From positions 1 through 21,287 of the IMG/VR virus record IMGVR_UViG_3300001778_000039: a DNA stretch of 21,287 nucleotides; one strand, 5' to 3'. Positions 2,962 through 21,287 of the stretch are shown here, piece after piece (position 1 is the stretch's first letter; each line of letters begins with the position of its first letter). The translations under genes were made by a program, and so were the position numbers. The stretch is from a virus. The notes below the pieces were generated by a model, which was not told the DNA's origin, did no database searches, and saw nothing but the letters and a program-made list of their open reading frames with translations.

Positions 2962-2963
2962 AG

Positions 2964-3185
2964 TTGGAAGATAAGCGGTTGGGATTGAAGCGGAGGCTTA
3001 TTGAATTAGAACACGAGGCAGAAAGTATTTCGTCTCGTGTGAGAGATATAGAATGGCAAATGGTCAACTATTCAGACAGCTATGAGCGCGACAACATGGC
3101 TGACGATAGACGTAAGGCTATGGATAAACTCAAATACGTCCGAAACAACATAGCTGAAATTAAGATAAGGTTACTTGAAGAATGA
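2964..3185 (+). CDS. small charged coiled-coil protein, TTG start
   Basis: This encodes 73 residues with no recognised family. Nearly the whole chain is charged and helix-forming, with heptad-like stretches at the start (RRLIELEHEAESISSRVRDI) and end (KLKYVRNNIAEIKIRLLEE), separated by a polar NYSDSYERDNMADD segment. This suggests a helical hairpin or dimer. Two in-frame TTG codons are possible; the one at 2964 is chosen because AGGAG at 2953-2957 then sits six bases upstream, while for 2958 it would abut the start. A TTG start implies modest expression. The end overlaps the next gene by four bases (ATGA), so translation is probably coupled to the kinase. Function is unknown. Confidence 0.72.
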   Translation: MEDKRLGLKRRLIELEHEAESISSRVRDIEWQMVNYSDSYERDNMADDRRKAMDKLKYVRNNIAEIKIRLLEE

Positions 3186-3742
3186 GATTAGTAGCATTTT
3201 GTGGATTGATGGGGTCTGGCAAAACCTATGCGGCGGACTACTTGGTGCAAAATTTCGGTTATACTAGGGTAAAGTTTGCTGGCGTCTTGAAGGATATGCT
3301 TCGGACGATGGGGCTTACTGATGAACACATAGAGGGTGACTTAAAAGATTTGCCCTGCGAATTGCTAGATGGGAGAACGCCAAGATGGGCGATGCAAAGT
3401 TTGGGAACGGAATGGGGTCGAACCTGCATAAGCGAAAATCTGTGGGGAAACCTCTGGGAACAAGAGGTACAATCTCTGCTAAAGAAAAGCAAATCAGTCG
3501 TAGTAGACGACTGTCGCTTCGACAACGAAGTGGCGAGAGTGAAGCGCTTGAGGGGGTTAGTATGTCTGATTACGACCCCAACTTCAGGAACCGCAGACAG
3601 CCACCCCAGTGAGAGCCTGCCGTCAAATCCTGATGTAACTTTAATTAACCAGAAAAACCGACACTTTAACGAGATGCTAGACACGCTTGTAGGGCAGAAC
3701 AACAAACTGCCTAAAGTGTCGCAGAACGGATGGTCGGTATGA
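3182..3742 (+). CDS. deoxynucleoside monophosphate kinase
   Basis: This 186-residue P-loop kinase probably phosphorylates dNMPs from degraded host DNA to dNDPs for phage replication, like T4 gene 1 protein. Walker A is GLMGSGKT at residues 8-15. The LGTEWGR segment at 74-80 and the strand VVVDDCRFDNE at 106-116 are hallmarks of the phage dNMP kinase family. The length is somewhat below that of T4 dNMP kinase. The segment around 60-70 (ELLDGRTPRWAMQ) fits the substrate-binding lid region. It overlaps the preceding gene by four bases with an ATGA junction, and no separate ribosome site is evident, so translational coupling is likely. No truncation or missing motif is seen. Which nucleotides it accepts cannot be read from sequence. 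Confidence 0.85.
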   Translation: MRLVAFCGLMGSGKTYAADYLVQNFGYTRVKFAGVLKDMLRTMGLTDEHIEGDLKDLPCELLDGRTPRWAMQSLGTEWGRTCISENLWGNLWEQEVQSLLKKSKSVVVDDCRFDNEVARVKRLRGLVCLITTPTSGTADSHPSESLPSNPDVTLINQKNRHFNEMLDTLVGQNNKLPKVSQNGWSV

Positions 3743-3762
3743 TAAGTCAAGGGGACGGCTCT

Positions 3763-3993
3763 ATGCAAAGAGCAATAGACAGTGGGCTATGCCCTAGATG
3801 TCATAGCTCTATGAAGGTAGAGGTGCATGGTCATGTTCAGTGTGGTGTGTGTAAGATGTATGTCGATGAGTGCTGTTCAGGTGAGACGGCATCATGCGCT
3901 ACCGCCGTTGTGTCTAGCGATGAGGAACATACAGAAGATGACAAGTCCCCAGACGCCGATGAACAGAAGTACGCTCCCTATGATAATCTCTAA
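3763..3993 (+). CDS. zinc-ribbon protein with acidic tail overlapping the opposing gene
   Basis: This 76-residue protein begins with a zinc ribbon: CPRC at residues 10-13 and CGVC at 27-30, with 13 residues between the pairs. More cysteines follow (ECCSGETASC). The rest is strongly acidic (SSDEEHTEDDKSPDADEQ). The start at 3763 is chosen for AAGGGGA at 3749-3755, seven bases upstream; in-frame ATGs at 3730 and 3739 would extend it into the kinase gene without a good ribosome site, although 3739 would give a four-base ATGA overlap. Residues 44-76 are read antisense to the membrane segment of the leftward gene in exact codon register, which explains the acidic tail. Short zinc ribbons often contact nucleic acid or RNA polymerase, but nothing specific can be claimed. 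Confidence 0.65.
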   Translation: MQRAIDSGLCPRCHSSMKVEVHGHVQCGVCKMYVDECCSGETASCATAVVSSDEEHTEDDKSPDADEQKYAPYDNL

Positions 3994-4705: not shown

Positions 4706-5161
4706 CTAATCTCCCAACTCGAAGTGAGGTGCGTCAATAAACGGGCGTCTATTCTGCGACCTTCTTAAATCAATATACTCCAAATTGGCTGTCTCCATCG
4801 TCCCCATGTACTCGCATATATCGTCAATATGCCAAGCCGCGCCCCACCGTAGGTTGTCTACATCAAGCTCGTGAGCCGCAGTACGCATGGCTTCCGCCAC
4901 ATCATCGTATAGATTTATCTCCCATGATATTTGACCATCACAGTAAGCAACCAAGTCCACGGCTTTTCCGTCTAGGTGCTTGGAGTTCATGGTTTGGGAT
5001 TTCCCTGCCGCGACCAAACGCTCTTGCTCTTCCCATGAACGTAGACCGCAGGTCACTCCAAAATCTACCTTGGTTAGCTCGATAGCACGGACAACGACTT
5101 CGGTTAGTCTCTCGTCTACACCACCCAAATTAGCAACACTGCGCTGAGATAACTTAAACAT
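4706..5161 (-). CDS. M15-family peptidase endolysin (L-alanyl-D-glutamate/VanY-like)
   Basis: This 151-residue single-domain enzyme is probably the phage endolysin, cutting peptide cross-bridges of peptidoglycan. Zinc-site motifs of M15 peptidases are present: SKHLDGKAVDL with H62 and D69, and near the C-terminus DAPHFELGD with H146. The substrate-groove element CGLRSWEEQERLVAAGKS around 38-55 is also typical. There is no signal peptide or cell-wall-binding domain, so export depends on a holin, and two holin-like genes lie directly upstream. The ATG at 5161 overlaps the holin stop by one base (TAATG), with AAAGGG shortly before. Length fits globular endolysins of phages of Gram-negative hosts. 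Precise bond specificity is not readable from sequence. Confidence 0.88.
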   Translation of the reverse strand: MFKLSQRSVANLGGVDERLTEVVVRAIELTKVDFGVTCGLRSWEEQERLVAAGKSQTMNSKHLDGKAVDLVAYCDGQISWEINLYDDVAEAMRTAAHELDVDNLRWGAAWHIDDICEYMGTMETANLEYIDLRRSQNRRPFIDAPHFELGD

Positions 5162-5529
5162 TACTTGCCCTTTCTCTTTTCCATAATCCCCTCGAAGGCT
5201 CCTCCTCCGAAGTAGAAAGCGATTATCGCAAACATGATTTCACCTATGTAGAAATCGCCCATCACAGCCTTAACGCTGTCTATGTCACCCTTGCCTGCCA
5301 GCGTCATAGCCATGACGATGACAAACACTGATAGATATGTGAGGCCAAACATCAGCGCGAGGTAGCGCTGGGCTAACTTAAACGGCTGGTAAGCCTGTAG
5401 TAAGTCTGTCTTTGCCTTCGACTTAGCGGCAACCTCTTCCTCTGTGGACGTATGGAAACTGTCTATGAGGTCGAGGCCTTTGCTAATCACCTTGTCTGAA
5501 CCAAGGATTTTTCCGAGAACTGCAAACAT
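5161..5529 (-). CDS. holin, GTA_holin_3TM-like
   Basis: This 122-residue membrane protein resembles the 3TM holin family known from gene transfer agents and many marine phages. A charged N-terminal part (FHTSTEEEVAAKSKAKTDLL) leads through the characteristic YQPFKLAQRYLALMF into two strong hydrophobic helices at about 56-77 and 93-115, ending in the basic tail MEKRKGK. The N-terminal segment (VLGKILGSDKVISKGLDLI) is amphipathic and may be the third membrane-associated helix. Its probable role is to open the inner membrane at lysis so that the endolysin encoded next can reach the wall. The ATG at 5529 follows AAAGG six bases upstream. The stop shares one base with the endolysin start, a classic coupled lysis pair. 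Confidence 0.8.
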   Translation of the reverse strand: MFAVLGKILGSDKVISKGLDLIDSFHTSTEEEVAAKSKAKTDLLQAYQPFKLAQRYLALMFGLTYLSVFVIVMAMTLAGKGDIDSVKAVMGDFYIGEIMFAIIAFYFGGGAFEGIMEKRKGK

Positions 5530-5539
5530 TATTTACCTT

Positions 5540-5734
5540 TCATTTCCGTTCACTTCCGAGCCAGACTGCGAAAGCGCCTGTCATGCTACCGCTGACAACG
5601 CTTATCATTGAGGCCTGCTGGGTGCTGATGTCATCGAGTGAAATTCCCCATTCAATCACGCGGATATACATGGCTGTCATAACCATCATCATTATTCGTG
5701 GACCGACTTTGTGCCTTAATAGTATGTCGCTCAC
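5540..5734 (-). CDS. small two-helix membrane protein, holin-like
   Basis: This encodes 64 residues with two predicted membrane helices, about 12-30 (RIMMMVMTAMYIRVIEW) and 40-60 (ASMISVVSGSMTGAFAVWLG), and a short charged end, GSERK. Size and topology fit class II holins, and it sits directly upstream of the GTA-type holin. The start is GTG at 5734, overlapping the stop of the giant gene by four bases (GTGA). No ribosome site is visible, so translation is probably coupled to termination of the giant gene and may be low. It could be a second holin, an antiholin or a pinholin-like partner; sequence alone does not decide. The run of methionines at residues 15-19 could also allow an internal start. 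Confidence 0.7.
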   Translation of the reverse strand: MSDILLRHKVGPRIMMMVMTAMYIRVIEWGISLDDISTQQASMISVVSGSMTGAFAVWLGSERK

Positions 5735-8700
5735 TTGAACGGACTTTCACCAAACTTACCTTTACCGAAGGGGCTAGACCCGAAGCCGCCCTTTCGTCCC
5801 GGCTTACCCGGTTCGCCGCCTAAATCTGCCGCGCCTTCTCGGAAGTCACTTATTCCGCCAGCTACAGGTACACGTCTAGCCATCTCTCTCAGTGCCGCAC
5901 GCTTGTTGCCAGTCTTCTCTTCGCCTGTGATAAAGTCACTCGCACCTGCGGCCATCGTTAGACCGCTATCAAACACTGCGCTAAATGATGGTCCAGCTAC
6001 CGCACTAGCAACTCTCATTTTACCGTATGCACCGTTGTCAGCTTGGCTGGCGGCGTTATAGAAGAACTCAGCGAATAGACCGAGGCCACCCATAGCCATC
6101 AGGCTCTCTATGTACCAGCCTGCGTACTTGTCTACATCACTACCCTCGCGAACATTGAAGGCTCTAGCCAGTGCTTCTGATGAGTTTGTCAGGCTTCTCT
6201 TGCGGAACTCTGCGCTTCTCTCATCATCACCACCCCTCTGCTGTACGATGTCCTTCATACCTAGTGAAATAGCACCAGCGCCAACGCCAGCAGTCGCCAT
6301 ATACATGAGTGGTAGTGGGTTGCCGTGAACAAACGCCTCACTCACTACATGTCTACTCAAACGTGCCATCATTAGAGGGAACGATTTAAGCTGGAACATG
6401 AGGCTACCCCAAGGTGTCTGCGCCCACATAGGCACATCGTTGGGGTTCGGGGTAAAGATGGCTTCGTTAGTGAAGCGGAGTGCCGCCGCACGAACCTGCA
6501 TCTGTACGTCTTCACGGTTTGCAGGTATCTCGTCTATCATAAATGAACTGTTAGACAGAAAGTCATGCTCTGCATTTTGACCAGTGAGACCATACCTTTC
6601 CAAGAAACGCTTGGCTTTCTTATAGGTGTACCCGTCTCTGTTGCCTGACATGTACGCTTTTCTTGCACGAGCTATCTCAGACTTGAACGCCTCCATGCCC
6701 ACCATAGACGCCATCTCTCTGTTGAAGTTTGTCCATGTTGTGAGGAATGTGGCGTTGAAGAACGAGTTTGTGAATTTTTGTGAACCGCCACCAGCCATGT
6801 GAACCATGCGGTCATGCAACATATTCTCGATGCCTGTGCCGATGTTCTTAGCGGCCTGCCTGTAGACGGGGTCGCTCATGTATTTAATCCACGCCTTGCC
6901 AAACGCTCTCATGTTTCCGCTTCTAATCAGCGGCAACGCCAAGTCAGGAACAGATGTCAGGGTTGTGAACGCAAGCAGTGTCACAGAATTAAATGACTTC
7001 ATGTTGCGTACCACTTTATGTTTCGTCTCGTTGCCACTTGAGCCGTCTATTGGCTTGCGGTTCAGGACATTCATCATCTCGTCCATGCGTTGCATGGCTG
7101 TGGTACTCATGCCGCCTGCTGGGAAATCAGCAAGAGCGTTGACAACTGCGTCTACCCTGCGGATGTAGCCAGCTTGTGTTCTGAACTGTGCCTCTTGTGC
7201 ATTGAGCAGAATGTTCTTGGCTCGCTGGATAGCGGCGTGCTTGTTCTCGTCAGGAACATTAAGCTCATCCTGAACTGACCGAAGCACGCTTTCTATCTCT
7301 TGTCTGTTGCCTTTGAGTGGGTGGATGTATGGGTATTCCTCTATCTCTACCTTCACGCCAAGTGTGTCGTTGTGTGTGGTCATGTGCTTGCCGGACATCA
7401 TAATGTCTACTGCGCTCTCTGCGCCTAGGCGTGCAACTGCCTTGTACTCGTCTACGCCATGACCGTTGAGGCCAAACTTCTCAGTCAGCAGTCTCTTGCG
7501 AACTGTTCTGTCGAAGTATTTAGCCATCAAACCCTGTAGGTTGTTGACCAAGAACGGCATCATCTCCGGCACATCTTCAGGCTGGAGGTTAATGACACGT
7601 TTCTGGAAGGCATCAGGTACGGAGTATTTGATAGCGTCTACCGTATCCATTACACCTTCTTGGTCTGTCAAACGCTTTGCCAGCATCTTTACTTTGGCGT
7701 TGATTTGCGCTCGTGTAAGACGATGCTTGGCTGGGAAGTCAAGCGAGTTTTGCTCCCTAATCAGGAAGTTAGTCATAGCCATTTCAAAAGCGTTAGGGTT
7801 TGCCAAGATTGCTTCGCCGTCCCACACTTGTGGAACGTAGAAGCCTGTGCCTCTTGAGCGAACATCACCAACTGGGATATCTAGCGCACGCAGGTTGTCT
7901 AGCTCATCTGCAAACAGACTAGCGACTTTCAGAGCGATAGCTTTTTCTTTTGGTTTCAACCTGTCCACTTCACCTCTGCCCATACGAAGCGCACGAACAA
8001 TGCGCTCGTGGCTCTTGGGTTGCCCGACTTCCATAAACAGCAGGCCTTTGTTGCGCTTATTCCAGCGCTCGAACTTGTTGCCAGCGTCGTCTAGCTCATC
8101 GAGAGCTTGGAAAGTTTTTGACAAGATGCGAGACATCTCAACGTCATGCTTCTCGTAGAAGCCCACACCCTTCTCTGGTTTGATTGTGTTCCCAAACCAG
8201 TTGGCTCCGTATGACCTGAAGCGTGCGGAGTTTTCCTTAAACAGGTTAAGGATTGTAGAAATTTTACCCACCTTCTGCACGTCGCTCTCTGCTATTGGCT
8301 GTTGCTTCAGCATCTTCTTTAGCGGCTTCATAACGCCAGCAGGCACGCCTGCGTGCTGTAGTCCAGTGGCTAGGGTAGGTGTAGACGTTGGAGGATACTT
8401 AGCGCCTGTGTAGAACATCTCTTCTGCAACCGCGCCAGCGACCTTCAGGTCTCCTCCCATCTGTTCTGTTCTCATTTGAGGGGCATCAGACTGGTTGTAG
8501 CCACGGACAGCGTGCTTGACGTTGTCTGGGTCGAAGAACACATACCCTTCGTCTGTCTCGATAGCGTCCATGCCTGACTTTTGCAGATACAGATTGAGTT
8601 TGTTCTTGGCGTCGTTGCCATCAATCGAGTTTCCATGCAGGTGCAACACGCCGAACTCGTCGTTTGTCAGAGCCGCATATAGCTGTCTGCCATTGAACTC

Positions 8701-11700
8701 GCCCTGAAAAACATTAAGCAGAGCATTGACGCCTTTATCGTTAATCATGCCTGTGTTCGCCATATCTTGTATCAGATAAGCGATGTTGTTTTTCTGCTCA
8801 CCAGCTATTGTATATTTAGACTTGCTGTTGAAGCTGAGTGTGGCACGAGACCGTGTGAATACGGGCGCAACCTTCTGGTCATAGAACGACTTATTTATGT
8901 TCTGTAACAGGTTCCACATATTAGCTTCTTGGCGTAGACGCACCCGTATGCCACGGTGGTCGGGGTTTCTTGCGTTCATCATGCGCTCTATGTCTGTGCG
9001 GAGAGACGCTATATGTTGAGCCGCCGCTTTAACGCTACGCATATCCTCGCCGTTGACGCCTAGTTGTTTTGCTCTGTTAATTAAGCGGTTGACGAAGATT
9101 TCCGGGTCGTATGAATTATTAAGCTGGCTACCTTTAGTGATGTAGACACCAGTTCCGTACTCACCGAATGAAGGTGTGACACCCCTAACCTGACCTTCAG
9201 GTGACACGTTATACATAATGCGCTTAGACAGAGGCTCTTCCATGCGGATGCCGCCCCATGTCCTGATAGCCATTTCCTGTGCCAGCGGCATGTTATCAGC
9301 CAGTTCCCTGCCGTATTTAACAGCTACTACAGGGTGAACGACATCGTCTCTTATGGAGTGAGCCGCATCGACCATTGGTGACTTAGACCGCTGTGACGCA
9401 AACACATCTCCGTAAGCGGCAAACTGGTACATGTTCTTGTGTATCGGGTCGTCAATCAAACCATTAGACAATACCGCCACATCATCCAAGATGTTGTGTA
9501 GCATCTTGGTAAGGGTTGGCGTGCCTTGCCATTCTGGCAGACCAAGCATGTCTTCAAATGGCACACTGCCTCTAATATGAAACTCGATTAACCTGTCTAG
9601 TTCCTTGAGGACATCTTCGCTGTTTCTTGGCTGTTTGCCGTCTTGAATCATAGCGTCTACTAACAGCCTTCTCTCTGACGGGGTTTGCAAATGGTAGCTA
9701 AACCTAGCCAAACGGCCGATTAGTTCTGGAGCATCCTTTGCGGCGAGGTTGGCAAGGGTACGCATATTGTCGCGTAGACCTTGATAAAGCTCGTCGTCTA
9801 GGTTCAGGGCGACAACGTCATCAAAGTCATCTGCCGGGTGTCCTTGCATAACCATAGCGCCATACTGTGTGACGCCTACGTTTTCGCCGACATCCTCACC
9901 AGTCAAAGTCGCCATTCTCTGCATCAACTCTCTGGCTACAACCATCTTGCGCTTGTCTCTGTGCGTCACGGCCTCTACCTGCTCTTTAAGAGTTTCTGAG
10001 ATATGTGGATAGATGCCAATGCCGTCGCTATCGCCTGCGCTTTTTTCGACGATGTCGTTTACAAGTTTTGCGGCACGAGAGCTTTCAATTAACTTTGGAT
10101 TGTCATGGCCGCGAGACTTGAGGATTTGCGTGATTATCTGCACAAACTTCGGTGAGTTTTCCTGAACTGATTTGCGGTACATGGAACGCAATTCATTGTC
10201 GCTCATTTCTGTTAGACGCTGAACCGCTTGATGCTCTTCAGTATTTAAGTCGTTAAGGTCTACCTGTGCAGGCTCAGTGTTCGCCTTGTTAATACGCTCG
10301 TTCACAAGGTTCACATGCTGTACTGTCTCTTCCTTTGTAGCCAGTAGCTTGTTAGACAGCGCATCATCGGACATGGACTTGGGAGACATACCTAATTCTG
10401 GGTCGCCTGATTCCATCGCGTCTGTGTAGATGCTGGCCTTGCGCTTATTGATAGCTTCAAGCAAAGCCCTAGCGCTTTTGTTGGCCTGTTCGCGCTGGGC
10501 TTGGTTATACTGCTTCATAAAGCGGAGTGACTTTTCGCTTGGCTGTCCTAGATATGCGCTACCGTCGTCGTTCAATACCACGCTTTCGTGTCTAGCTGTC
10601 TTTGGCAGGCTATTAGAAAACTCTGTGCGGTACTTTCTGATGCCTTGGTTGATAGCAAATACCATTTCGTTAGCCAGTTTACGCATGTGTAGAGCCTGTG
10701 CGGCCTCTACATCTGAGTAGTCACCAGCCTGCAAGATACGCATGGTAGCCGCATCCACACCTTCTGTCTGGAAGTCGCCTTCCTGAGACTGCATGATTTC
10801 TGTAAGGCGTGCATCATTCTTATCTTTGCCTGCGCGAAGTGTATCTAAGAACTCCTTGGCGTTCTTCTGAGCCTTGTAGATTGCGTTTCTAGCAGATGAG
10901 CCATCAAGGATGGTGTCTCTTGTAGTGCCGTCTTTGTGCGTTCTGTCGCCAGCCTTGCCGCCGTAGAACCTGTATAGGCTCTTGTGTGTCTTTTCCAGAA
11001 CCTTACCTAGTTCGATGGTGTCGTTAGGGTTGGCGTTGATGTGACGCAACGCAGAGATAAGTTCTACACGCTGGTTGTCTAGCGTTTCCAGACGTTCAGC
11101 TATGTACGAGGCTCGCTCTGGGTTTCTCGCAATCTTCTGTGCAACTTCTTGCAGACCTGCGAACCTGCTTATGCCGCCGTTTGAGCCACCTGTTACAGGG
11201 TCTATGTCTAGCTCTGGCAAATAACGCTGGAAGATTGGCACGAGGTCTTCGTCAAGCTGGAACTCGTCTCCACGAATACGCTTGATAAGAGCATGAGCTA
11301 TCTTCGATACCTTGCTCCATAAACCAACATCACCAACTTGCCTGTTAGTTACAGCCCATGCCATAAACTGATTTGCAAAGAACTCAGCAGGGCTTTTCAT
11401 GTCGTTATCGAACACATCAATCCCGTCGGCGTCGCCCATATTTGCACGCTTCTGAAGCATGTCTATGTTCACGCCGTCTTCGTCGATGTACTTGCCGATA
11501 GCTCCCCAGAACTTGAGCTTGTCGCCCTCGTCTAGGAGCGTGCCATAAATCCAATGCCCAAGTTCATGTAACACTAGGGCGGATGACGGCAAGTGACGTT
11601 CACCTGTTCCCTCAACATCGTTAAGGATATTACCATCTATCAGTATCTTATTGCGAAGTTCCTTGTACTGGTATGAGGTATTCATCGCATAGGCAGAGTT

Positions 11701-14700
11701 GACATTCTTGATGTTCTCTGCGCTACGGAATGTAGGCGCGACCCCTTCGTTGCTGTATGCAAGACGCACAAGTATATCTTCTACTGACTGTAGTTCTTCT
11801 GGAGAAGCGTTGCCCAGTACGTTGTGCAGAGTAGATATAGAAGAACGCACGTTGGACGTTGGTTTCTCTACTCCATTAGGAGCATAGCGGCGAAGCAAAG
11901 CAGACGCCTCATATCTTGTCGTTACCCACGCCTGATACTCTTCTACAGTGCCAAGCGTGTTCCAATCCATGTTGTCCATCTCAACGATGTAATCATGCAG
12001 GTCAGCCGCAGTCCTGATACCACGCTCGCGCATGGCTGGTGTGGCTTCCTCGATAATCGTATTCGCCAAGTCTTCTAGCTTCTTGGGGCGAACCTTGCGC
12101 TGTCGTGGGCTTGAGCGTGAAAGCTCTGCCTTTGTTGGGTTGAACTCATCGGCACGAACTGTCTCTGTCATGCCCATAGGAATGAAGTGTTCTGCCTCGT
12201 TCATTGGGCGGAACGTAGACATGGCCTCAACGCCTTTAGCGCCGTAGTCCACGAAGCCGAGGACGTATTCTTCCTGTTTGCCAAGTACATCCTGAACTGT
12301 TTGTTTGTCGTTCAGGTTGAAGGGGCGAACCTTGCCGCGTTGCTTTCCGTTGCCAAGTATCTGTACCGCAGGCCATCTACCTGCTGGGATGTCGAAGCTA
12401 GTGGCTCGTGCAGTCAGTGGGTTTTCAGGGTCGAATGGTCTGGCCGGGTTGTCTACAGGGTCTACAGCCTCAATCTTTGGCTTTTGCGGTGCGCCCTTGT
12501 AAGTCTGTGTCACCTCATGGTTCGGCATAGTATAGCTAGAGCCAGAGGACGGTACTTCATCGAAGTACGGTTCGGCATCTTGCTTTGCTCTGATGCGGTC
12601 TTTGTGACGCACAGCAAGGAACTTCAGGAACTCGCCCTTACCATAGAAAGACATGGCTAGGCCGTCTGTCCCTTCGTATGTATAGCCCCATTGGGTTGTC
12701 TTTTTGACTGTGCCGACTTTGTCGCCGAAGAAGGAGATGTCTGTCAGGTCGTCTGACAGCATGTTCTTGCTAAAGGTAAAGTCATTAGTGACATCCACCT
12801 CAACAGCACGTCCCTCGCCCAAGTCTACAACAACAATGGCTGGGTTGTTCTTAACTTCTGCTGGCGTGGTATCAGGCGCTACTTTGTTTGCCTTCATGGC
12901 CTTGGCCATCTCTACAGCTTGCTTAACAACCGCCGCCATTTGCTCGTCCGACAAGTCAGGCAGTGCGTTTTCGTTCATAAACTTAGCGACCAGAGCTTTG
13001 ATGCCGTCTTGTCGGGCTATCTCGTCTGCGTTCTTCTCTGCCTTCTGCACAACCTCGGCAGGTATTTCAGAGCCGTCTAGGTCAGTCTTTGTAGTGACCA
13101 TGCCGTCTTGCTCTAGCGCTTCTTGAGTTAGATTCTCGACCAGCGCGGCGTTCTTGCTGTCGGCGAATACAGCTTTCTCTGTAGCTGTGCCTGTTTCAAG
13201 CTGTTGTCTTAGCTTGTTAGCATCATCTAGCATCTTGTCCAGCTTGAAACGGTTGATTTCCTCCCCGTTTTCTAGGCGTGCCGCCATGCGCTGAATTTCT
13301 TTCTCAAGTTGTATGAGCTTGCCGCGAGCCGCAGTAATTACTGCGGTCTCCTTCGCTACTTCTGCCCTGTTACCAGCCGCCTCTTTTTCTGTTGACCGTG
13401 AAAGCAAAGCGATGTTTTGGTTTAGCGCCTTGCGAGCAGTAGCTTCTTTATCTAAAACCCCCGTGCCAATTTCCATTGGCTGTCCTGTAGCGGAATCTGT
13501 TACGGTCTCACGAACACGGACTTCGTTTTGTCTGATAAGTGCAGTGTCAATAAGGTTTTCCTCTACCGTTGCCAGCAGGTCTGACCTTTCTTTTTCTAAA
13601 GCATAAAGTTTGTTCTCAACCTCAGTTGGGTCTACGCCATCAAACTCTTTGACCTTCTTCTTGGCCGCGCGAATCTTGCCGTCTAGGCTTTTCAGTTCTT
13701 TTTGTATTGCCAAAAGTGGGTCTAGTTTTTCAGCGTTACGACCCTGCTTGATTGGGTCTACGGTCATGCGGTTAGTTGCGCGAGCTATGCTTGCATCAGC
13801 CATTTGCTTATGTGCTGTAATCAAGCGGCTAAGTCTTCTGACCTGACCATTAACATCTGTAGTCTTAATGCTTTGCCAGACACCACCGTCATTCATGCCA
13901 CGGTGGCTGGCCTTCAAACTGCCTTGTGGGCGCTTAATAATGCTACCGCCCTCTCGCTCTTTGCCAAACACTGTGTATGTGCCAAGACCTTTGCGTTGTT
14001 GTGCGCCTATATGAGGGGCGTTGTTGGAGAACTCATCATGTACGGAGAAGTCACGAGTGCCTCGTGTCTGCAACTGGCGCACGTCTAAGGTCACTGTAGC
14101 GCCCTTCTTAATGCTTGCGCCAATGCCTTCAGCACGCTTCTCAAGTTGTGCAATTATCTCGCCCAAAGACTTACCGGTGAACCCGTGCTTGGCTCCAATA
14201 GCGGAAATCTCTGCCCTGACCCGAAGATAACGCAACTCGTCTGCGGTAGGCTCACCAGAAGGGTCGAAGAAAAGACGCATCTTCTGACCTTCTTTTTGCA
14301 TGGTAAAGTTTTCCCAATCGACATGATATGTAGTCACATCATCCCTTGCGAACTTTGCCTTTTCTCTAATCTTACCATTAGACTTCAGGTCTAGGAGTTG
14401 AGAGCGCAGAGATTTAAGTGACAGTATATCTGTTGTCAAAGCCTGCTGGTCACGAGACATCATGCCAATGTCTCTGGTTAGGATTTCTGGAGATGCGGCA
14501 ATCATTCGTTCTGCTTTTTCAGCTTGAACATCTCTCGCCATAGCTATGGCGTCTGCCTCTGACATACCCATCTTTTCCATCAGATTTCTGGTAGACGCGA
14601 TTAGGCCATCACGGATTAACACGCGGTTCTCTTCACTAAGTACAGAGAGCAACTTGTCTAGGTTGTCGCCGTTCTTGCCGGGGATGCCAGCTTTCTGAAC

Positions 14701-17202
14701 AGCAGGGTTAAGGTTCTGCGCCGCCATAGTCATAGCGTCGTCACCAAACTTAATTCTTATTTCGTCAAGAGCGTCCGCAACGTCTAGGCCATCTGCCATC
14801 ATATTGACGAGCAGTTGCTTACTGCGGTTTGTTGCATACAGGTCGTAATGTGCAAGAGCCAGTTCTTGTAGGTTCTCTGGGACTGTCTGCTTTATAGCAG
14901 TCACGACAGCCTTCATGTTCATAGACTGCACATCGTCCATGCCGCCAAACATATTGTCGAGAACCATGAACAGGTGGTCTCTTGCTACGAACTGCTCTAC
15001 ACGCTCGCGCAAATATTCTCTTTGCTTAATCTTCGTCTGTGGGTTGCGGCCATCTCCGAAGCTCTTGAGCTTGCGTTTGGCAACCTTGGGGTCGTCGCCC
15101 ATCTCTACGAGAGCATCGACCATCCTGTTCGTGTCATTACCAACAACTTCCAGAACTCTGTCTGGGCTGTCAGGCGTAGACGTGCCGATTGTTGGGTCAG
15201 CTTCCACATCTTGTGTTGGAGCGCCCTCTGCTTCAGGGGCAACCGCCTCAGACTTTCTGGCTTTAATTTGCGTTTCTATACCGTCTAGGTCACGGCCAAG
15301 TTGGGATAGCTCGCTGTTGGCTGTGTCAAGGCGTGCTTTCGCGTCATCGCCTTTCTTCTGCAACTCAGCGAGAGCCGCCTCTTCTGCGCCATCTTGTTTT
15401 GCTTTTGCGTAGTTGTCTCTTGCTTGCTTTAGCTCTGCCTGCGCTTCAGTGCCACGGGCTTTAGCTTTTGCAATTTCGCTCTTGGTGCTTTCAGCACGAG
15501 CCTCTAGGTCTTTGCCTATGTTCGCTGGGCGCTCCAACAGTGGGATGTTCTCAGGGATAACACCACTTACACGAGCCTTCTTTATTTCTTCGATGTTTGC
15601 ACGGAGCGTCTCTGCTTCTGCTTCGTCTGTGACATCGTCTAGGCGTTGCTCGTACTGTTCCTGAAGCGCTTTCAATTCTGCTTCTTGTGGGGCATTTGCT
15701 TCAGCGTCAGCGTTTCTTACCGGGATATTCGCGTCTGCGGCAGATGCCTGCCCAGTGATGCGTGTGGTTGGCTGTCCTTCTGGGGTTTCCTTTAACTCAA
15801 GTAACTTGGTGGCCTCTTCGCTATGCCGACCAAGTTTATCCATTTGCTCGGTAGCATTAGCGGCTTTGTTGTTACCAAGCAGATTGTTGAAGGATGCTTC
15901 AATAGCGTTTGACACTTGGCGATGGCGTCTAGCTTGCGCCATTTTATCTGTGCGAGCTTTTGCATCAAGCTCTGGGTCAGACGCTTCGCGCTCTAACCTC
16001 TGTGCGCTTTCTTCCAGAATAATCATCTGGTCTGCGGCAGTCCGCAAACGGCTGGCTTGGCTCAACTCAACCTTGTCTGGGTCAGCAGTAATTTTTACAG
16101 TGTTGCCATCTACTCTCGCACCTGCATTTGTATCTGTAGGCTCTTCATCAAGGCGTGCCGCAATACCCTCAATCTGCTCCGCAAGCTGACGCTTGCCATC
16201 CATCTCGGCTTCTTGGGCTGATACATCTGTGTCGAGGCCACGGCCTATAGCCGCGCTTGGGTCTATGCGAGCTTCATTGTTGGCGGCACGCATAGCTGAC
16301 TGCTCTTGCATAATCCCCTGCTTTACAGGTGCAGGCATGAAGCCTTTGGAAGATGCTTTGTTTGTGGCAGAGCCAAGCAACCCTTCCTTACCCTTTGTAG
16401 GAATGACGCCGAACTTCATGTTGTAAGGATTGGCCGCACCAGCTAGACCGAAGCCAGCACCTAGCGCACCACTAAAGATTGAGCCTACACCGACTGCTTT
16501 ACCTAGCTGTGAGTAGCTGAACTCGTCTTGCAGGCCAATCTGCATATTGCGGTTCTGCTCGCCGATATTGAAGCCGCCTTCAACGGCTCCGCCAACTATG
16601 GCTTCGTTTCTTGCGCCCTTGTATGCGCCAGCCGCTAGACCCTTCTTTACTGCCTCGCGCTTGACTTCGCTAAGTGCGCTTTGAGTTAGGGCTTTTGTAG
16701 ACGCCGCACGCACACCTGCCGCCGCCGCTTTAGCGGCCGCCGCACCAGAGCCGAAGCCAATAAGGTTTACGGGGTCTAGCAGAGCGTACCCTGCATTTGC
16801 GGCAAAGCCTTTCCAGCCGTCGCCGCCTTCTTCGTAGAAGTCTGGGAGATTATCGAAAAGTGTCTGAAGTCTTGCTAGACGTAGCTTCTGCTGGTCTTCA
16901 GCACCAGCGAGGCCAATCATCTCACCACCGAGACCAAACGAGTTCATGCCTCTGTATCTACGGTCTGAGATGAAATAATCACGAGCTTCATCAGCGTTGG
17001 CAAACGTCTTGCCATCGCGCTCGTAGTAATATTCCATTATGTCGGATATGGCTTCTGCGCTGTTAAAAGCGCTACGGGCTTGGTCTTTATTCTTTATTCC
17101 AGATGCCCAGCCAAGGCCAGATGAGTTAGCTTGACCGCCTAGTTGGTCATGGTTTGTTTCGGCCATGACCCCTGCGATATATTCGCGACTTCTTTTAGAC
17201 AC
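5731..17202 (-). CDS. giant polyvalent internal virion protein with zincin and ADP-ribosyltransferase-like domains
   Basis: This 3823-residue protein sits where T7-like phages carry the gp16 ejection protein (about 1300 residues). Hydrophobic small-residue stretches at about 139-165, 186-215 and 236-257 (beginning YALLDPVNLIGFGSG) could enter membrane. Long charged coiled coils follow at about 510-650, 1160-1215 and 1280-1340. A zincin site HELGH at 1879-1883 with a downstream glutamate E1940 (SPAEFFANQF) indicates a metallopeptidase. An ADP-ribosyltransferase-like segment spans about 2660-2900: MYNVS, then YGTGVYITKG, then GYVFFDPDNV. The end region has more hydrophobic helices near 3400, 3630 and 3700 and finishes with two Gly-Phe repeats. 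I see no lytic transglycosylase motif. It begins with GTG at 17202 after GGAG nine bases upstream, inside a possible hairpin. It is probably packaged and injected at infection; enzyme roles are inferred from motifs. Confidence 0.82.
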   Translation of the reverse strand: MSKRSREYIAGVMAETNHDQLGGQANSSGLGWASGIKNKDQARSAFNSAEAISDIMEYYYERDGKTFANADEARDYFISDRRYRGMNSFGLGGEMIGLAGAEDQQKLRLARLQTLFDNLPDFYEEGGDGWKGFAANAGYALLDPVNLIGFGSGAAAAKAAAAGVRAASTKALTQSALSEVKREAVKKGLAAGAYKGARNEAIVGGAVEGGFNIGEQNRNMQIGLQDEFSYSQLGKAVGVGSIFSGALGAGFGLAGAANPYNMKFGVIPTKGKEGLLGSATNKASSKGFMPAPVKQGIMQEQSAMRAANNEARIDPSAAIGRGLDTDVSAQEAEMDGKRQLAEQIEGIAARLDEEPTDTNAGARVDGNTVKITADPDKVELSQASRLRTAADQMIILEESAQRLEREASDPELDAKARTDKMAQARRHRQVSNAIEASFNNLLGNNKAANATEQMDKLGRHSEEATKLLELKETPEGQPTTRITGQASAADANIPVRNADAEANAPQEAELKALQEQYEQRLDDVTDEAEAETLRANIEEIKKARVSGVIPENIPLLERPANIGKDLEARAESTKSEIAKAKARGTEAQAELKQARDNYAKAKQDGAEEAALAELQKKGDDAKARLDTANSELSQLGRDLDGIETQIKARKSEAVAPEAEGAPTQDVEADPTIGTSTPDSPDRVLEVVGNDTNRMVDALVEMGDDPKVAKRKLKSFGDGRNPQTKIKQREYLRERVEQFVARDHLFMVLDNMFGGMDDVQSMNMKAVVTAIKQTVPENLQELALAHYDLYATNRSKQLLVNMMADGLDVADALDEIRIKFGDDAMTMAAQNLNPAVQKAGIPGKNGDNLDKLLSVLSEENRVLIRDGLIASTRNLMEKMGMSEADAIAMARDVQAEKAERMIAASPEILTRDIGMMSRDQQALTTDILSLKSLRSQLLDLKSNGKIREKAKFARDDVTTYHVDWENFTMQKEGQKMRLFFDPSGEPTADELRYLRVRAEISAIGAKHGFTGKSLGEIIAQLEKRAEGIGASIKKGATVTLDVRQLQTRGTRDFSVHDEFSNNAPHIGAQQRKGLGTYTVFGKEREGGSIIKRPQGSLKASHRGMNDGGVWQSIKTTDVNGQVRRLSRLITAHKQMADASIARATNRMTVDPIKQGRNAEKLDPLLAIQKELKSLDGKIRAAKKKVKEFDGVDPTEVENKLYALEKERSDLLATVEENLIDTALIRQNEVRVRETVTDSATGQPMEIGTGVLDKEATARKALNQNIALLSRSTEKEAAGNRAEVAKETAVITAARGKLIQLEKEIQRMAARLENGEEINRFKLDKMLDDANKLRQQLETGTATEKAVFADSKNAALVENLTQEALEQDGMVTTKTDLDGSEIPAEVVQKAEKNADEIARQDGIKALVAKFMNENALPDLSDEQMAAVVKQAVEMAKAMKANKVAPDTTPAEVKNNPAIVVVDLGEGRAVEVDVTNDFTFSKNMLSDDLTDISFFGDKVGTVKKTTQWGYTYEGTDGLAMSFYGKGEFLKFLAVRHKDRIRAKQDAEPYFDEVPSSGSSYTMPNHEVTQTYKGAPQKPKIEAVDPVDNPARPFDPENPLTARATSFDIPAGRWPAVQILGNGKQRGKVRPFNLNDKQTVQDVLGKQEEYVLGFVDYGAKGVEAMSTFRPMNEAEHFIPMGMTETVRADEFNPTKAELSRSSPRQRKVRPKKLEDLANTIIEEATPAMRERGIRTAADLHDYIVEMDNMDWNTLGTVEEYQAWVTTRYEASALLRRYAPNGVEKPTSNVRSSISTLHNVLGNASPEELQSVEDILVRLAYSNEGVAPTFRSAENIKNVNSAYAMNTSYQYKELRNKILIDGNILNDVEGTGERHLPSSALVLHELGHWIYGTLLDEGDKLKFWGAIGKYIDEDGVNIDMLQKRANMGDADGIDVFDNDMKSPAEFFANQFMAWAVTNRQVGDVGLWSKVSKIAHALIKRIRGDEFQLDEDLVPIFQRYLPELDIDPVTGGSNGGISRFAGLQEVAQKIARNPERASYIAERLETLDNQRVELISALRHINANPNDTIELGKVLEKTHKSLYRFYGGKAGDRTHKDGTTRDTILDGSSARNAIYKAQKNAKEFLDTLRAGKDKNDARLTEIMQSQEGDFQTEGVDAATMRILQAGDYSDVEAAQALHMRKLANEMVFAINQGIRKYRTEFSNSLPKTARHESVVLNDDGSAYLGQPSEKSLRFMKQYNQAQREQANKSARALLEAINKRKASIYTDAMESGDPELGMSPKSMSDDALSNKLLATKEETVQHVNLVNERINKANTEPAQVDLNDLNTEEHQAVQRLTEMSDNELRSMYRKSVQENSPKFVQIITQILKSRGHDNPKLIESSRAAKLVNDIVEKSAGDSDGIGIYPHISETLKEQVEAVTHRDKRKMVVARELMQRMATLTGEDVGENVGVTQYGAMVMQGHPADDFDDVVALNLDDELYQGLRDNMRTLANLAAKDAPELIGRLARFSYHLQTPSERRLLVDAMIQDGKQPRNSEDVLKELDRLIEFHIRGSVPFEDMLGLPEWQGTPTLTKMLHNILDDVAVLSNGLIDDPIHKNMYQFAAYGDVFASQRSKSPMVDAAHSIRDDVVHPVVAVKYGRELADNMPLAQEMAIRTWGGIRMEEPLSKRIMYNVSPEGQVRGVTPSFGEYGTGVYITKGSQLNNSYDPEIFVNRLINRAKQLGVNGEDMRSVKAAAQHIASLRTDIERMMNARNPDHRGIRVRLRQEANMWNLLQNINKSFYDQKVAPVFTRSRATLSFNSKSKYTIAGEQKNNIAYLIQDMANTGMINDKGVNALLNVFQGEFNGRQLYAALTNDEFGVLHLHGNSIDGNDAKNKLNLYLQKSGMDAIETDEGYVFFDPDNVKHAVRGYNQSDAPQMRTEQMGGDLKVAGAVAEEMFYTGAKYPPTSTPTLATGLQHAGVPAGVMKPLKKMLKQQPIAESDVQKVGKISTILNLFKENSARFRSYGANWFGNTIKPEKGVGFYEKHDVEMSRILSKTFQALDELDDAGNKFERWNKRNKGLLFMEVGQPKSHERIVRALRMGRGEVDRLKPKEKAIALKVASLFADELDNLRALDIPVGDVRSRGTGFYVPQVWDGEAILANPNAFEMAMTNFLIREQNSLDFPAKHRLTRAQINAKVKMLAKRLTDQEGVMDTVDAIKYSVPDAFQKRVINLQPEDVPEMMPFLVNNLQGLMAKYFDRTVRKRLLTEKFGLNGHGVDEYKAVARLGAESAVDIMMSGKHMTTHNDTLGVKVEIEEYPYIHPLKGNRQEIESVLRSVQDELNVPDENKHAAIQRAKNILLNAQEAQFRTQAGYIRRVDAVVNALADFPAGGMSTTAMQRMDEMMNVLNRKPIDGSSGNETKHKVVRNMKSFNSVTLLAFTTLTSVPDLALPLIRSGNMRAFGKAWIKYMSDPVYRQAAKNIGTGIENMLHDRMVHMAGGGSQKFTNSFFNATFLTTWTNFNREMASMVGMEAFKSEIARARKAYMSGNRDGYTYKKAKRFLERYGLTGQNAEHDFLSNSSFMIDEIPANREDVQMQVRAAALRFTNEAIFTPNPNDVPMWAQTPWGSLMFQLKSFPLMMARLSRHVVSEAFVHGNPLPLMYMATAGVGAGAISLGMKDIVQQRGGDDERSAEFRKRSLTNSSEALARAFNVREGSDVDKYAGWYIESLMAMGGLGLFAEFFYNAASQADNGAYGKMRVASAVAGPSFSAVFDSGLTMAAGASDFITGEEKTGNKRAALREMARRVPVAGGISDFREGAADLGGEPGKPGRKGGFGSSPFGKGKFGESPFK

Positions 17203-17265: not shown

Positions 17266-19611
17266 CTACCTGCCTGTGCGTGAGCCGCGACGGTCATCTG
17301 CGTTAGACTGAGCCACTTCTTCTGGCGGCACAATCTCGTAAGTGCCATTGGCCTTCATTCTGTAGAACACTCCCGGCTGGTGCATCCCAAACTGTTGCGC
17401 CCTAGACACCGCCTCGCTGTCTTTATCGTTAATTTGGAAGACACGCTCACCGCTTAGAGTTCTAAAGGTGGTAAAGTAACTGGGCTTCGCCTTTGCTTGC
17501 GACGCTTTTGCAAGGCCACTCATCTGTATGATAAAGCTCTCCATCTGGTTTGTGAAGGTTTGGCCGTTAAATCCACTAAGCGCATACTTGATGCTGTCCT
17601 GATTGGCGTCGTCTTTATACTCATTAACCATACCCATGATTTTCTGGACATAATCGTTTCGTATTTGGTCTACTTTCTCTGGTGGTGTGTCCAAAGGTAG
17701 GTTCTGTATTTTGGAAATCAGAGACATAGACAGCATTTTTACATCTGCTTGAGCGTTATCTAGGTAATCTGTAAAGGTCATTTCAGGGTCTACCAAGTCT
17801 TCAAGGTCTAGTAGTTCCTGTTGCCTCTTGGCTAGAGCCGCCCCCTTTGGAAGCAGGCTATGAGACGCAGACGCATAGTCTACAACACTGTTGAAAAGGG
17901 CGAGGTCGTCCAAGTCAGCCGCTTCGATATCATTAGTATCAAGATACGTCTTGATTGTTTGTATCAGGGCTGATTGCTCAGACGGCGGAATGTAAAGCTC
18001 AGTCATCATTCTACCAGCCACAGCTTTTAGAGCTTCACTGTTCTCCCCACCCATAGCCGCAACTAGGTTGGAAATGTTGTCGTTCTGTGTCTTGAGATTG
18101 TTGTCTACAGTCGTCTGTGCAGATGAGTTAATCTGAGTAATACGACTGTAGTAACTGTCGCCAAAGTATTTCTTAATTTTGGCTTCGGCGCTCTGCCACA
18201 ATCTATCAAACTCTGGGCTGTCCATTTTCAGAGGTTCTTGCAAATGCTCACGCCGAACATCATTGACTGCATCCAAGTAGCCTTGCTTACGGTCTGGTAT
18301 TGAGCGACCAGTTAAGAACGATGCTGGAACTCCTTTAGGGTCGTTTATCGCTGTCGAAATAGCGGCGGTTACACGTTCAGCTTCGCTCACAATAGCGCTG
18401 TTAATGCGTGGAAGTGCCGCCTGTCTCAGCCTTGCTTTGTAATCAGCAATCTCTTGTTCAGATAGACCTAGTTGTATCATTTGGCTGTCTTGGAATATGC
18501 CATCAATAAATTCGTCGATTTCTTGGTCTGTATCCAAGTCATCCAAAACTTCCTGTGGCGTAGACGCAATAAGGCTGACGCCTGCTTGGATACGAGTTTC
18601 GTTCTCGGCTCCTATCTTAGCTGTGACCTGAGTTCTGAGATTGTTCTTCGCCCTTTCCAACTCTTCGGGGCCATAGCTGTAGCCAGTCGCGTCTAGGTAT
18701 TTCCTAGCGATACGGTCTAACTCCTCATCATCTCCAACTGCGGCGAGAAGCTCTGTGTCTGTGGCTGTAAGTCCAGAGATGGCTTTGCCGATAGTGCCAG
18801 AAGCGGTGACATCAAACATAGAGTTAATCAAATTTCTAATTTTTGCCTTGTCTGCTTCGGTAGCGAGGCCATTGGATGTGGAGACCAACTGGTCTACGGC
18901 GAGCTTTTCAGCGGCCGCTTTGTCGCCCATAGCTCGCTCGATGATGTCGGCCATGTTGCCTTCGACAGCCTTCATCGCTGTGTCTCTTGACGTAACTTCA
19001 AATTGGGATATCTGACTGTCGCCTATCGTAAGCAGTTCCTTACGCATCCATTCTGGCGCTTTCTGGGCGGCGGCTTGGATTGCATCTTTACTTGTCAGTC
19101 TATTAAAGCCAACGCTTGTGATGTATGACGAGAGAGCATCACTTCTGCCTTTGTTATGAACAGTCTTCCAACCTCCGTTAGCGCCCATGCTGTTCCACAA
19201 GTTGCCTTGACCTGCTTGCTCAAACGCATTTTGCATGTCTTTCGCAAGGTCAGGGTCGTTCTCTTCTCTATTCACAAACCGCTTAACAACAGTGCCAAAC
19301 ACCCTGTCTTGGTCTTCAACAGTCTTCAAGGCGTTCTGTGCTTCGGTCTGCTGAGTGTTTGCCTTGAGTTCGGTTAGACGAGAAGATGTTTCCAAAAGCT
19401 CTGAAGATGTAGGCAGGCCAGCGGTGAAGTAGTTATCACCACGGCCAAAGCTATCACGCATCCGCGTTAGCTCTTCTCCCGTCGCCGTTTCGCCCATCTC
19501 TTTTTTGAAACGCACATAGTCGCGGAAGTCTTCTGCGTTTTCCCTACGACGACGGCGCAGGTTGTCAATCTCGGTGTTGTAACCTTTGAAGAAAGCACTG
19601 CCTAATCTCAT
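17266..19611 (-). CDS. internal virion (ejection core) protein in the gp15 position
   Basis: This 781-residue, mostly helical, charged protein lacks a signal peptide or clear membrane helix. It has no catalytic motif that I can recognise. Its N-terminus (MRLGSAFFKGYNTEIDNLRR) is followed by the very basic RRRRREN. Its place between a gp14-like protein and the giant gp16-position protein, and a length close to T7 gp15 (about 750 residues), support an internal core role in DNA ejection. The sequence itself is not diagnostic. The ATG at 19611 follows GAGG six bases upstream, eight bases after the preceding stop. The C-terminus has a compact region (SYFTTFRTLSGERVFQINDK) and ends basic, DDRRGSRTGR. 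The gene ends 63 bases before the giant gene, the largest gap in the leftward module. Confidence 0.65.
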   Translation of the reverse strand: MRLGSAFFKGYNTEIDNLRRRRRENAEDFRDYVRFKKEMGETATGEELTRMRDSFGRGDNYFTAGLPTSSELLETSSRLTELKANTQQTEAQNALKTVEDQDRVFGTVVKRFVNREENDPDLAKDMQNAFEQAGQGNLWNSMGANGGWKTVHNKGRSDALSSYITSVGFNRLTSKDAIQAAAQKAPEWMRKELLTIGDSQISQFEVTSRDTAMKAVEGNMADIIERAMGDKAAAEKLAVDQLVSTSNGLATEADKAKIRNLINSMFDVTASGTIGKAISGLTATDTELLAAVGDDEELDRIARKYLDATGYSYGPEELERAKNNLRTQVTAKIGAENETRIQAGVSLIASTPQEVLDDLDTDQEIDEFIDGIFQDSQMIQLGLSEQEIADYKARLRQAALPRINSAIVSEAERVTAAISTAINDPKGVPASFLTGRSIPDRKQGYLDAVNDVRREHLQEPLKMDSPEFDRLWQSAEAKIKKYFGDSYYSRITQINSSAQTTVDNNLKTQNDNISNLVAAMGGENSEALKAVAGRMMTELYIPPSEQSALIQTIKTYLDTNDIEAADLDDLALFNSVVDYASASHSLLPKGAALAKRQQELLDLEDLVDPEMTFTDYLDNAQADVKMLSMSLISKIQNLPLDTPPEKVDQIRNDYVQKIMGMVNEYKDDANQDSIKYALSGFNGQTFTNQMESFIIQMSGLAKASQAKAKPSYFTTFRTLSGERVFQINDKDSEAVSRAQQFGMHQPGVFYRMKANGTYEIVPPEEVAQSNADDRRGSRTGR

Positions 19612-19619
19612 TTAATGCC

Positions 19620-20519
19620 TCACTTCGTATATGTCTGAGTGTCGGGGTCCCACTTGAGGCCTGCCGCCGCAAGTGCTTGGTCTTTCTTCAAGTCACGAGA
19701 GGTGTCTAGGTAGCTGTTAGTTGCGCCAAAGCTATAACCAATGTTGGGAGCTACCTTTTCCTTAAACCTTCCGAGGGCGTTGCCCATATATTCTTGGCTA
19801 TCCATAGCAAGCTGGCTGGCATCAGCGGCAGTATTGGCTTGGTTGCCATAGGCTGTGTTTAGATAGCTCATGTCTGTGCCTGTGATAAGCCCTTTCTCAT
19901 AGTTCGCCGCGCTTCCGTAGACGTTAGCTAGTTCATCGAACACGCCCTGACGCTGGGAATTGAGAGAGGTGGCATAGTCTTGGCTACGTCTGATTGCCGC
20001 GTCGAAAGCAGACTGGTCTAGCTTTGGCAGTTCAGCCGCCGCCTTGCGAGCTAGTTCTGCTTGCCTATCATCCATCTGTGTAGACGCATCCATGCCTCGC
20101 GCAATCTGGTCGGCAAAGCCTTTAGACGCGATATTGTTGATGGTCTTCTGATAGTCATTCATTATCTGGTCACGGAACGTAGCATAGTTGTTAGCAACAT
20201 CCGTAGCACTAACTTGAACTCTCGGACCCAGCTTTGCCGCCGCGCCTTTTAACTGTTTATCAAGTTCTGCCGCACGGTCTAGGATACGTTGGCGCAACTG
20301 CGCTTGCTCTGCGGCGTTGTCTGCCGCGAGTTGCATCTGTGCATTACCCAGTTGTTGCTGTAGACGTAGTTGGTCTTCAGCTACCTTCTGGTCTTTTCTG
20401 TTTTGGAAGTAGCTATCTCCGATGTCATAGAGACCGCCTAAGAAATCAAAAGTGGCCTTAGTCTTTTTATCATCGAAGAAACTTCCGACTGCCGTAGCTG
20501 TCGCGTCACCATATGCCAT
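19620..20519 (-). CDS. internal virion protein, gp14-like
   Basis: This 299-residue protein resembles T7-type gp14 inner core proteins in its layout. It opens with MAYGDATATAVGSFFDDKK and GGLYDIGDSYFQNRKD, then a long Gln/Ala-rich helix (about 44-95, with QLRLQQQLGNAQMQLAADNA). Helical segments with repeated Asn, Asp, Tyr and Ala follow, and a small C-terminal motif ends LKWDPDTQTYTK. No clear transmembrane helix appears. In T7, gp14 is about 196 residues and joins gp15 and gp16 to form a trans-envelope channel; here the order of this gene, the 781-residue protein and the giant protein copies that arrangement. The ATG at 20519 has AGGGGG about six bases upstream. Assignment rests on position and composition more than on a specific motif. 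Confidence 0.66.
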   Translation of the reverse strand: MAYGDATATAVGSFFDDKKTKATFDFLGGLYDIGDSYFQNRKDQKVAEDQLRLQQQLGNAQMQLAADNAAEQAQLRQRILDRAAELDKQLKGAAAKLGPRVQVSATDVANNYATFRDQIMNDYQKTINNIASKGFADQIARGMDASTQMDDRQAELARKAAAELPKLDQSAFDAAIRRSQDYATSLNSQRQGVFDELANVYGSAANYEKGLITGTDMSYLNTAYGNQANTAADASQLAMDSQEYMGNALGRFKEKVAPNIGYSFGATNSYLDTSRDLKKDQALAAAGLKWDPDTQTYTK

Positions 20520-20531
20520 GCTGACCCCCTA

Positions 20532-21287
20532 TTAAAAGCCAGTACCGAAGAACCTTCTGCCAAAGCCTCCGCGCGGTCTCATCAGACCCCTTGAAATAGC
20601 TCCTCTAGCAACAGCCTGCGCTCCGGGTCTGAAACCAAACCCACCCAAGAAAGGAACTTGGTATTGAGCGTCTATGATGTTTGCTTTGCCCGGTGCAGGC
20701 GGCATGTAGTTCGGGTCTTTCTGAAGGTCTGATGGCGCTTGCTCGGCAGGTATGGCAGTGTTTACCGCATTACTGCCTGTGGCCTCGTTTACCATAACTT
20801 GACCCTCTCCACCTGACAAAACTCTATTGCCAAATGCTTGCTTGCCAACACCGGGGTCTCCGCCAGCAATATCAGGAACGCCTTGTTGCATCTCAACTGA
20901 TGCGTCTAGGCCGGGAACTTCTGCGGTCTCGGCGTATTCACCTTGCAAAAACGCACGTCTGTCTTGATTGAATACGTCCTGTCCTCGGAAAACCGCACTA
21001 GGGTCAGAGCCAATTACAGCTTCAAGAACTTCAGCGCCGCCACCCTCGCTCTGAGCGCCGGGAACAAATGCCGCTGTAGACTTGTCAGCGCCCATTCGCG
21101 CACCCGAACCTGTAGCGCCCATGTATGATGAGCCGCTGGCGTCAGCCGCGCCCATAACACTAGGTTTGCTTTGCGTAGTCTCGCCCGTACCACTCTCAAC
21201 ATACTGGACTGGTTTATTTGGTGCTGTCGGCTTTGTTGGTTTTGGAGCTTGTGGTGGAGTTATTGGCTTCGCTACAGAGCTACCGCC
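20532..21287 (-). CDS. Gly/Ala-rich virion-region protein, 5' end outside window
   Basis: The reading frame is open from 21287 to a stop at 20532, giving the last 251 residues of a longer protein. The visible start is a Pro/Lys/Thr-rich linker (AKPITPPPQAPKPTKPTAP). Next come low-complexity Gly/Ala/Ser stretches (ADASGSSYMGATGSGARMGA) and an acidic middle part. The C-terminus is Gly-, Phe- and Arg-rich (RPRGGFGRRFFGTGF). An internal ATG at 21155 exists, but the linker upstream has the same composition and no break, so the real start is probably beyond the window. No domain is recognised. Position directly before the gp14-like gene suggests a structural or assembly protein; scaffold, tail and core accessory roles all remain possible. 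Confidence 0.62.
   Translation of the reverse strand, partial: GGSSVAKPITPPQAPKPTKPTAPNKPVQYVESGTGETTQSKPSVMGAADASGSSYMGATGSGARMGADKSTAAFVPGAQSEGGGAEVLEAVIGSDPSAVFRGQDVFNQDRRAFLQGEYAETAEVPGLDASVEMQQGVPDIAGGDPGVGKQAFGNRVLSGGEGQVMVNEATGSNAVNTAIPAEQAPSDLQKDPNYMPPAPGKANIIDAQYQVPFLGGFGFRPGAQAVARGAISRGLMRPRGGFGRRFFGTGF

Follow-up and report, generated by a model that had tools for sequence, protein, structure and literature searches.

The virus record IMGVR_UViG_3300001778_000039 from IMG/VR (positions 1 to 21,287, all 21,287 nucleotides of which form the window analysed here) contains one giant open reading frame on its minus strand, and its product, hereafter the giant, is probably an inner-membrane and cytoplasmic ejection protein of the T7 gp16 type, belonging to a CRP-810-type podophage and carrying enzyme cargo to the host side. 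The frame runs from a GTG start at 17202, with GGAG 7 bases upstream, to a stop at 5731; across this stretch each of the remaining five frames is broken by 80-269 stops. Genes for proteins of 207, 299 and 781 amino acids (aa) precede it on the minus strand and the lysis genes follow. The giant is thus the last of three consecutive genes in the gp14-gp15-gp16 order, the other two being assigned by position only. The initial annotation had described a single uninterrupted 11.5-kb frame for 3823 residues and the succession of a gp14-like gene, a 781-residue protein, the giant and lysis genes, and both descriptions hold. Coordinates of all features are collected in Table 1.

Relatives were gathered by a scan with the C-terminal region, which yielded 20, and by an alignment scan, which yielded 185, of which 80 were fetched. 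Uninterrupted full-length giants of 2910-4121 aa are present in about 30 distinct marine contigs or loci, and therefore the frame is not due to chance. In these proteins the order of modules is constant: N module, zincin metallopeptidase domain, ADP-ribosyltransferase (ART)-like region and C module. Purifying selection acts on every module, linkers included. The ratio of nonsynonymous to synonymous substitution (dN/dS) was determined for four pairs of sequences, three of them close to synonymous saturation; in the pair with unsaturated synonymous sites (L016/L024) it was 0.05-0.20 in each module. Between the window and a 99% identical contig (L006), the last 433 codons differ by 37 synonymous and 5 replacement codons. 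Conservation is weak over about residues 261-1100.

The gp16 assignment, which the initial annotation had derived from the place of the gene, is now supported by profiles, predicted structure and synteny, the C module and the N module adding to position. C modules of relatives matched phrog_342, the family that also includes T7 gp16 (E 0), with E values of 3e-18 to 5e-13. In hhalign comparisons the C module aligned with the gp16 family along T7 residues 597-1203 with probabilities of 98.1-98.5% (E 7e-14 to 2e-15), and the real score of 142 compares with scores of at most 26 for 30 column-shuffled profiles. The N, zincin and ART modules as well as N4 polymerases gave no profile match to the gp16 family of the kind seen with the C module. 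For the predicted fold, we compared an AlphaFold model of residues 2560-3758 (mean predicted local distance difference test score 78.9) with PDB structures by Foldseek, followed by a second look with VIA-align in which about 1000 chains were re-aligned, and the structural claims concerning the PDB rest on VIA-align. Foldseek alone returned no PDB match under E 0.001 for this model or for that of the middle region, and sequence-profile searches of the PDB with the N and C modules as queries gave no match. The five best VIA-align rows for the C-terminal model were all phage ejection proteins, namely cyanophage A4, PhiM1, T7 twice and E1004; the gp16-type matches comprised PhiM1 (Z 8.3, 289 residues), T7 9jyy (Z 7.4, 277 residues), E1004 (Z 7.0) and T7 7eyb (Z 6.7). 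Taken together, the profiles and the modelled fold indicate that the C module is homologous to the T7 gp16 (internal virion protein D) family, as represented by phrog_342, PDB entries 7EYB and 9JYY and the PhiM1 TEP (8VB2).

Towards the other end, a match to the N-terminal part of internal virion protein D from T7-like pelagiphages (HTVC019P and others) covers residues ~45-245, with an E value of 1e-15. The HTVC019P-type protein (1265 aa) resembles the giant in this module of about 200 residues (30-35% identity) and in gene order, but is without zincin, ART or a detectable C module. The hydrophobic segments proposed earlier for both termini were recovered, albeit with moderate strength, and in strength and in position near both ends they are much like those of T7 gp16. 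The giant also shares with T7 gp16 the third place in the 14-15-16 gene order, whereas it is three times longer, carries an insert of about 2700 residues with the zincin and ART-like domains, and gave no Pfam or PHROG match to the T7-type N-terminal transglycosylase. That domain is likewise absent in P22 (PMC8954989), and in phage TL-2011b the match to phrog_342 begins only at profile position 203; being lineage-specific, the transglycosylase was not treated as defining the gp16 type.

Within the insert, the zincin site predicted by the initial annotation was confirmed: H1879, E1880, H1883 and E1940 are unchanged in all aligned giants, and the model of the region superimposes on the zincin domain of a known metalloprotease with Z 6.9 over 144 residues. 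The same zincin relationship was reported for N4-like proteins by Iyer et al. (PMC5512222). A second HExxH motif, mostly HEIGH, lies between the zincin and ART-like domains in many clades (L013, L057, L059, L066, L094, L095 and others, as well as CRP-810 gp35), and the window is without it.

The ART-like segment proposed earlier was also confirmed, by profile, motif and structure, and lies at about residues 2655-2900, but the catalytic histidine is not present in the window. Two relatives matched the ART-PolyVal profile with E values of 3e-4 and 7e-5 (22-24 bits, under the cut-off of 31.2), and the region gave a weak PARP-type profile match (E 0.03). Thus profile searches found both enzyme domains, in Pfam only below threshold. 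The best structural match of the region, and the top VIA-align row, was residues 944-1601 of the cyanophage A4 pre-ejectosome (PDB 9K3A_B; Z 9.1, 154 residues), a solved ejection protein. That chain is probably gp27 of Anabaena phage A-4L, as judged by size and numbering; gp27 (1717 aa) has YHGT at 1425-1428 and GSGTYF at 1444-1449, but shows no detectable sequence homology to the giant, and neither a zincin nor a C module was detected in it. The neighbouring A-4L gene product, gp28 (both genes at L119 20116-28497), has an M23 peptidase domain (E 1e-21). Among 50 aligned rows the ART histidine is kept in 38, and asparagine takes its place in the window and nine members of its clade, which traces to one change on the tree (support 92/93). 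With N2665 at the catalytic position, the ART-like domain of the window probably lacks transferase activity of the usual kind and may be inactive as a transferase altogether. It is under purifying selection even in the asparagine clade, where synonymous sites are near saturation. As regards the initial description of a multi-enzyme protein, the histidine loss may mean one active enzyme in the window, although other family members keep the ART motif.

Several observations weigh against the assignment of the giant as a cargo-bearing gp16-type protein. A T7-only profile (A6, close T7 relatives) matched the C module weakly (21.8%, E 0.001), yet collinearly, and thus the link to gp16 runs partly through bridging phages such as TL-2011b. 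For a helical protein, the Z values of the structural matches are in the middle range. No significant match was seen between the N module and T7 gp16, whether the latter was taken as a single sequence or as a family profile, and comparison of the 781-aa protein with T7 and pelagiphage gp15 detected no homology. The Pfam matches of the zincin and ART domains both lie under the gathering thresholds, and in the window the ART-like domain is without its catalytic histidine. Finally, packaging in virions, delivery, membrane topology, catalysis and targets are here inferred.

The combination of disparate domains in one chain (zincin and ART-like fold) and the late, virion-type gene context are both features of polyvalent proteins, and among the BFVD neighbours of the middle model, three (E 1e-14 to 1e-19) bear the name "large polyvalent protein associated domain". 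The idea that polyvalent cargo is fused to the ejection protein itself is thus supported by sequence profiles, structure and synteny. Polyvalent proteins with zincin and ART, including an N4-like virion polymerase, have already been published (PMC5512222), in a text where the term gp16 is absent. New here is the gp16-type chassis joined to this cargo across a whole phage family, together with the loss of the ART histidine in one clade. In N4-like virion RNA polymerases (vRNAPs), such as that of Roseovarius Plymouth podovirus 1, an ejected chain also carries zincin and ART (PMC5512222, PMC12633501). We therefore considered whether the giant is a divergent N4-type vRNAP with a polymerase core, given that it has the same size and the same order after two smaller ejection proteins, that vRNAPs with metallopeptidase and ART are known (PMC5512222) and that CRP-810 gp36 weakly matches phrog_2206 (E 6e-5). 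A faint N4 vRNAP signal was also seen in the zincin region (P 0.009). No polymerase was found by Pfam or PHROG matching, simple patterns for motifs A, B and C are absent (residues 261-1400 lie outside the structure models), and the N and C modules have no vRNAP match, the latter being of gp16 type, which makes this origin extremely improbable. Profile comparisons gave no match of N4 vRNAP to the N, ART or C modules and it was rejected as their relative; as a single sequence, N4 vRNAP did not match the N module either.

The divergent replication genes of the window, among them those for an AAA ATPase and a PD-(D/E)XK nuclease, are arranged as in the Roseobacter (CHUG) phage CRP-810, whose host is FZCC0198, and share 32-48% identity with it. 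The window therefore represents part of the genome of a CRP-810-type marine podophage. According to the published study, this marine family has 251 uncultured members and one cultured member able to integrate (PMC11288001). In CRP-810 (L002, OR671924.1) gp36-gp35-gp34 are collinear parts of the same protein, as compared against L013, but are annotated as three genes in contrast to the single frame of the giant, because in the record the first junction carries a small indel and the second a 29-nt tandem duplication (loci 19900-19999 and 13880-13990). The split is either genuine or due to an error in the sequence of the reference isolate. The name given in the consulted passages of the CRP-810 paper is "internal virion protein D" only, and enzymes are not mentioned there (PMC11288001). 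A PADLOC search gave no match. As the giant gene lies directly upstream of the holin and endolysin genes, its product could also be a late protein that stays outside virions, for instance a toxin or a lysis-associated polyprotein. We regard this as very unlikely in view of the gp16-type C module, the N module of pelagiphage internal virion proteins and the place after other late structural genes; moreover, the CRP-810 study lists internal virion protein D for all subgroups of the family (PMC11288001).

In T7 gp16, two hydrophobic regions cross the inner membrane and the intervening part is cytoplasmic (PMC8954989). By homology, the N and C modules of the giant would place the insert on the cytoplasmic side. 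We propose that the giant would be packed in the head together with the 299- and 781-aa proteins, exit via the tail ahead of the DNA and thread across the envelope, whereupon the N module and the C module would become embedded in the inner membrane in the way that both membrane regions of T7 gp16 are. The intervening ~2700 residues, zincin and ART-like domain included, would reach the cytoplasmic side as DNA enters. Since a ~3500-residue ejected protein of N4 has been proposed to pass the tail as beads-on-a-string (PMC12633501), the size of the giant is no obstacle. The peptidase might cut host or phage proteins or set cargo loose from the chain. Host proteins might also be modified by the ART-like domain in clades with the histidine kept; in the N2665 clade the domain is probably an inactive transferase or has turned into a binding module.

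Alternatively, the protein would be of gp16 type but its zincin would act, in the head or once ejected, on the giant alone; the ART-like domain would be a relic or structural spacer, and there would be no host targets. Self-processing by such metallopeptidases was suggested by Iyer et al. (PMC5512222), the packaged form of P1 DdrB is processed, and the histidine loss in the window fits a relic. Most relatives, however, keep Y-H-G-T, the tyrosine and the Asp/Glu, and the selection on the ART-like domain noted above extends to the asparagine clade. Furthermore, the second HExxH of many clades and the nuclease of Aeromonas phage phiA008 fit cargo better than a spacer, and we consider pure self-processing unlikely. 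The 2050-aa phiA008 protein (L004 10000-16152) has a gp16-type C module and a HELGH site like the giant, but its cargo includes a staphylococcal-nuclease-like domain. Together with the second HExxH of other clades, this looks like exchangeable cargo. More tentatively, and with slightly less than even confidence, gp16-type ejection proteins may serve generally as delivery vehicles in which a slot between the membrane modules takes exchangeable cargo. This slot would be empty in TL-2011b and occupied by a nuclease in phiA008, by an ART in cyanophage A4 and by an ART with one or two zincins in the CRP-810 family. If so, many short-tailed phages would also use the DNA-ejection channel to secrete effectors. 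Injection of polyvalent phage proteins with the DNA was predicted in 2017, and experiments have accounted for the delivery route mainly in N4-like RNA polymerases. In the giant, the cargo sits within a homologue of T7 gp16, the ejection protein studied best, in a marine family with global distribution, and with CRP-810 as a cultured, integrating member, delivery, processing and targets become directly testable.

Table 1. Features of the giant gene and its neighbours in the window (residue numbers refer to the giant; KD19, hydrophobicity score; TMH, transmembrane helix).
Feature	Residues	Position	Strand	Remarks
Giant, probable gp16-type ejection protein with enzyme cargo		5731..17202	minus	3823 aa
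N module	45-245	16468..17070	minus	DPVNLIG motif and hydrophobic stretch; common to pelagiphage internal virion protein D
Hydrophobic segment	233-251	16450..16506	minus	KD19 1.24; candidate counterpart of T7 TMH I (topology from PMC8954989)
Weakly conserved linker	261-1060	14023..16422	minus	pairwise identity 21-31%
Strand-rich region	1445-1690	12133..12870	minus	confidently modelled
Zincin metallopeptidase domain	1730-2000	11203..12015	minus	Pfam Tox-MPTase3, sub-threshold
HELGH zinc-binding motif	1879-1883	11554..11568	minus	invariant
Probable third zinc ligand	E1940	11383..11385	minus	invariant glutamate
Helical connector	2011-2560	9523..11172	minus	structure model
ART-like domain (ART-PolyVal type)	2655-2900	8503..9240	minus	profile, motif, structure
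ART catalytic His position	N2665	9208..9210	minus	YHGT in most relatives
ART strand-2 tyrosine	Y2687	9142..9144	minus	kept; alignment
ART acidic residue (strand 5)	D2879	8566..8568	minus	D or E in all aligned relatives
C module	2961-3800	5803..8322	minus	homologue of T7 gp16 ~600-1200
Hydrophobic segment	3408-3426	6925..6981	minus	KD19 1.45
QLKSFP	3604-3609	6376..6393	minus	aligned to T7 gp16 QFKSF
Hydrophobic segment	3630-3648	6259..6315	minus	KD19 1.32; candidate counterpart of T7 TMH II
207-aa late protein		20532..21155	minus	upstream of giant
299-aa protein, gp14 position		19620..20519	minus	weak match to CRP-810 gp38, E 1e-6
781-aa protein, gp15 (periplasmic tunnel) position		17266..19611	minus	by position
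Holin-like membrane protein		5161..5529	minus	phrog_9646 match
M15-type endolysin		4706..5161	minus	phrog_465 match

A fold search with the strand-rich region of residues 1445-1690 gave only partial matches of 55 residues, to single-layer beta sheets, and no fold was assigned to it. In one IMG/VR contig (L098 2616-12439) the giant gene lies in three overlapping frames, which is a frameshift error or real fission. The only match from the genome-contig search was a relative split into two frames in a contig of a Neomarinimicrobiota metagenome-assembled genome (L114), which suggests either that the host does not belong to the Proteobacteria or that a free phage was binned.
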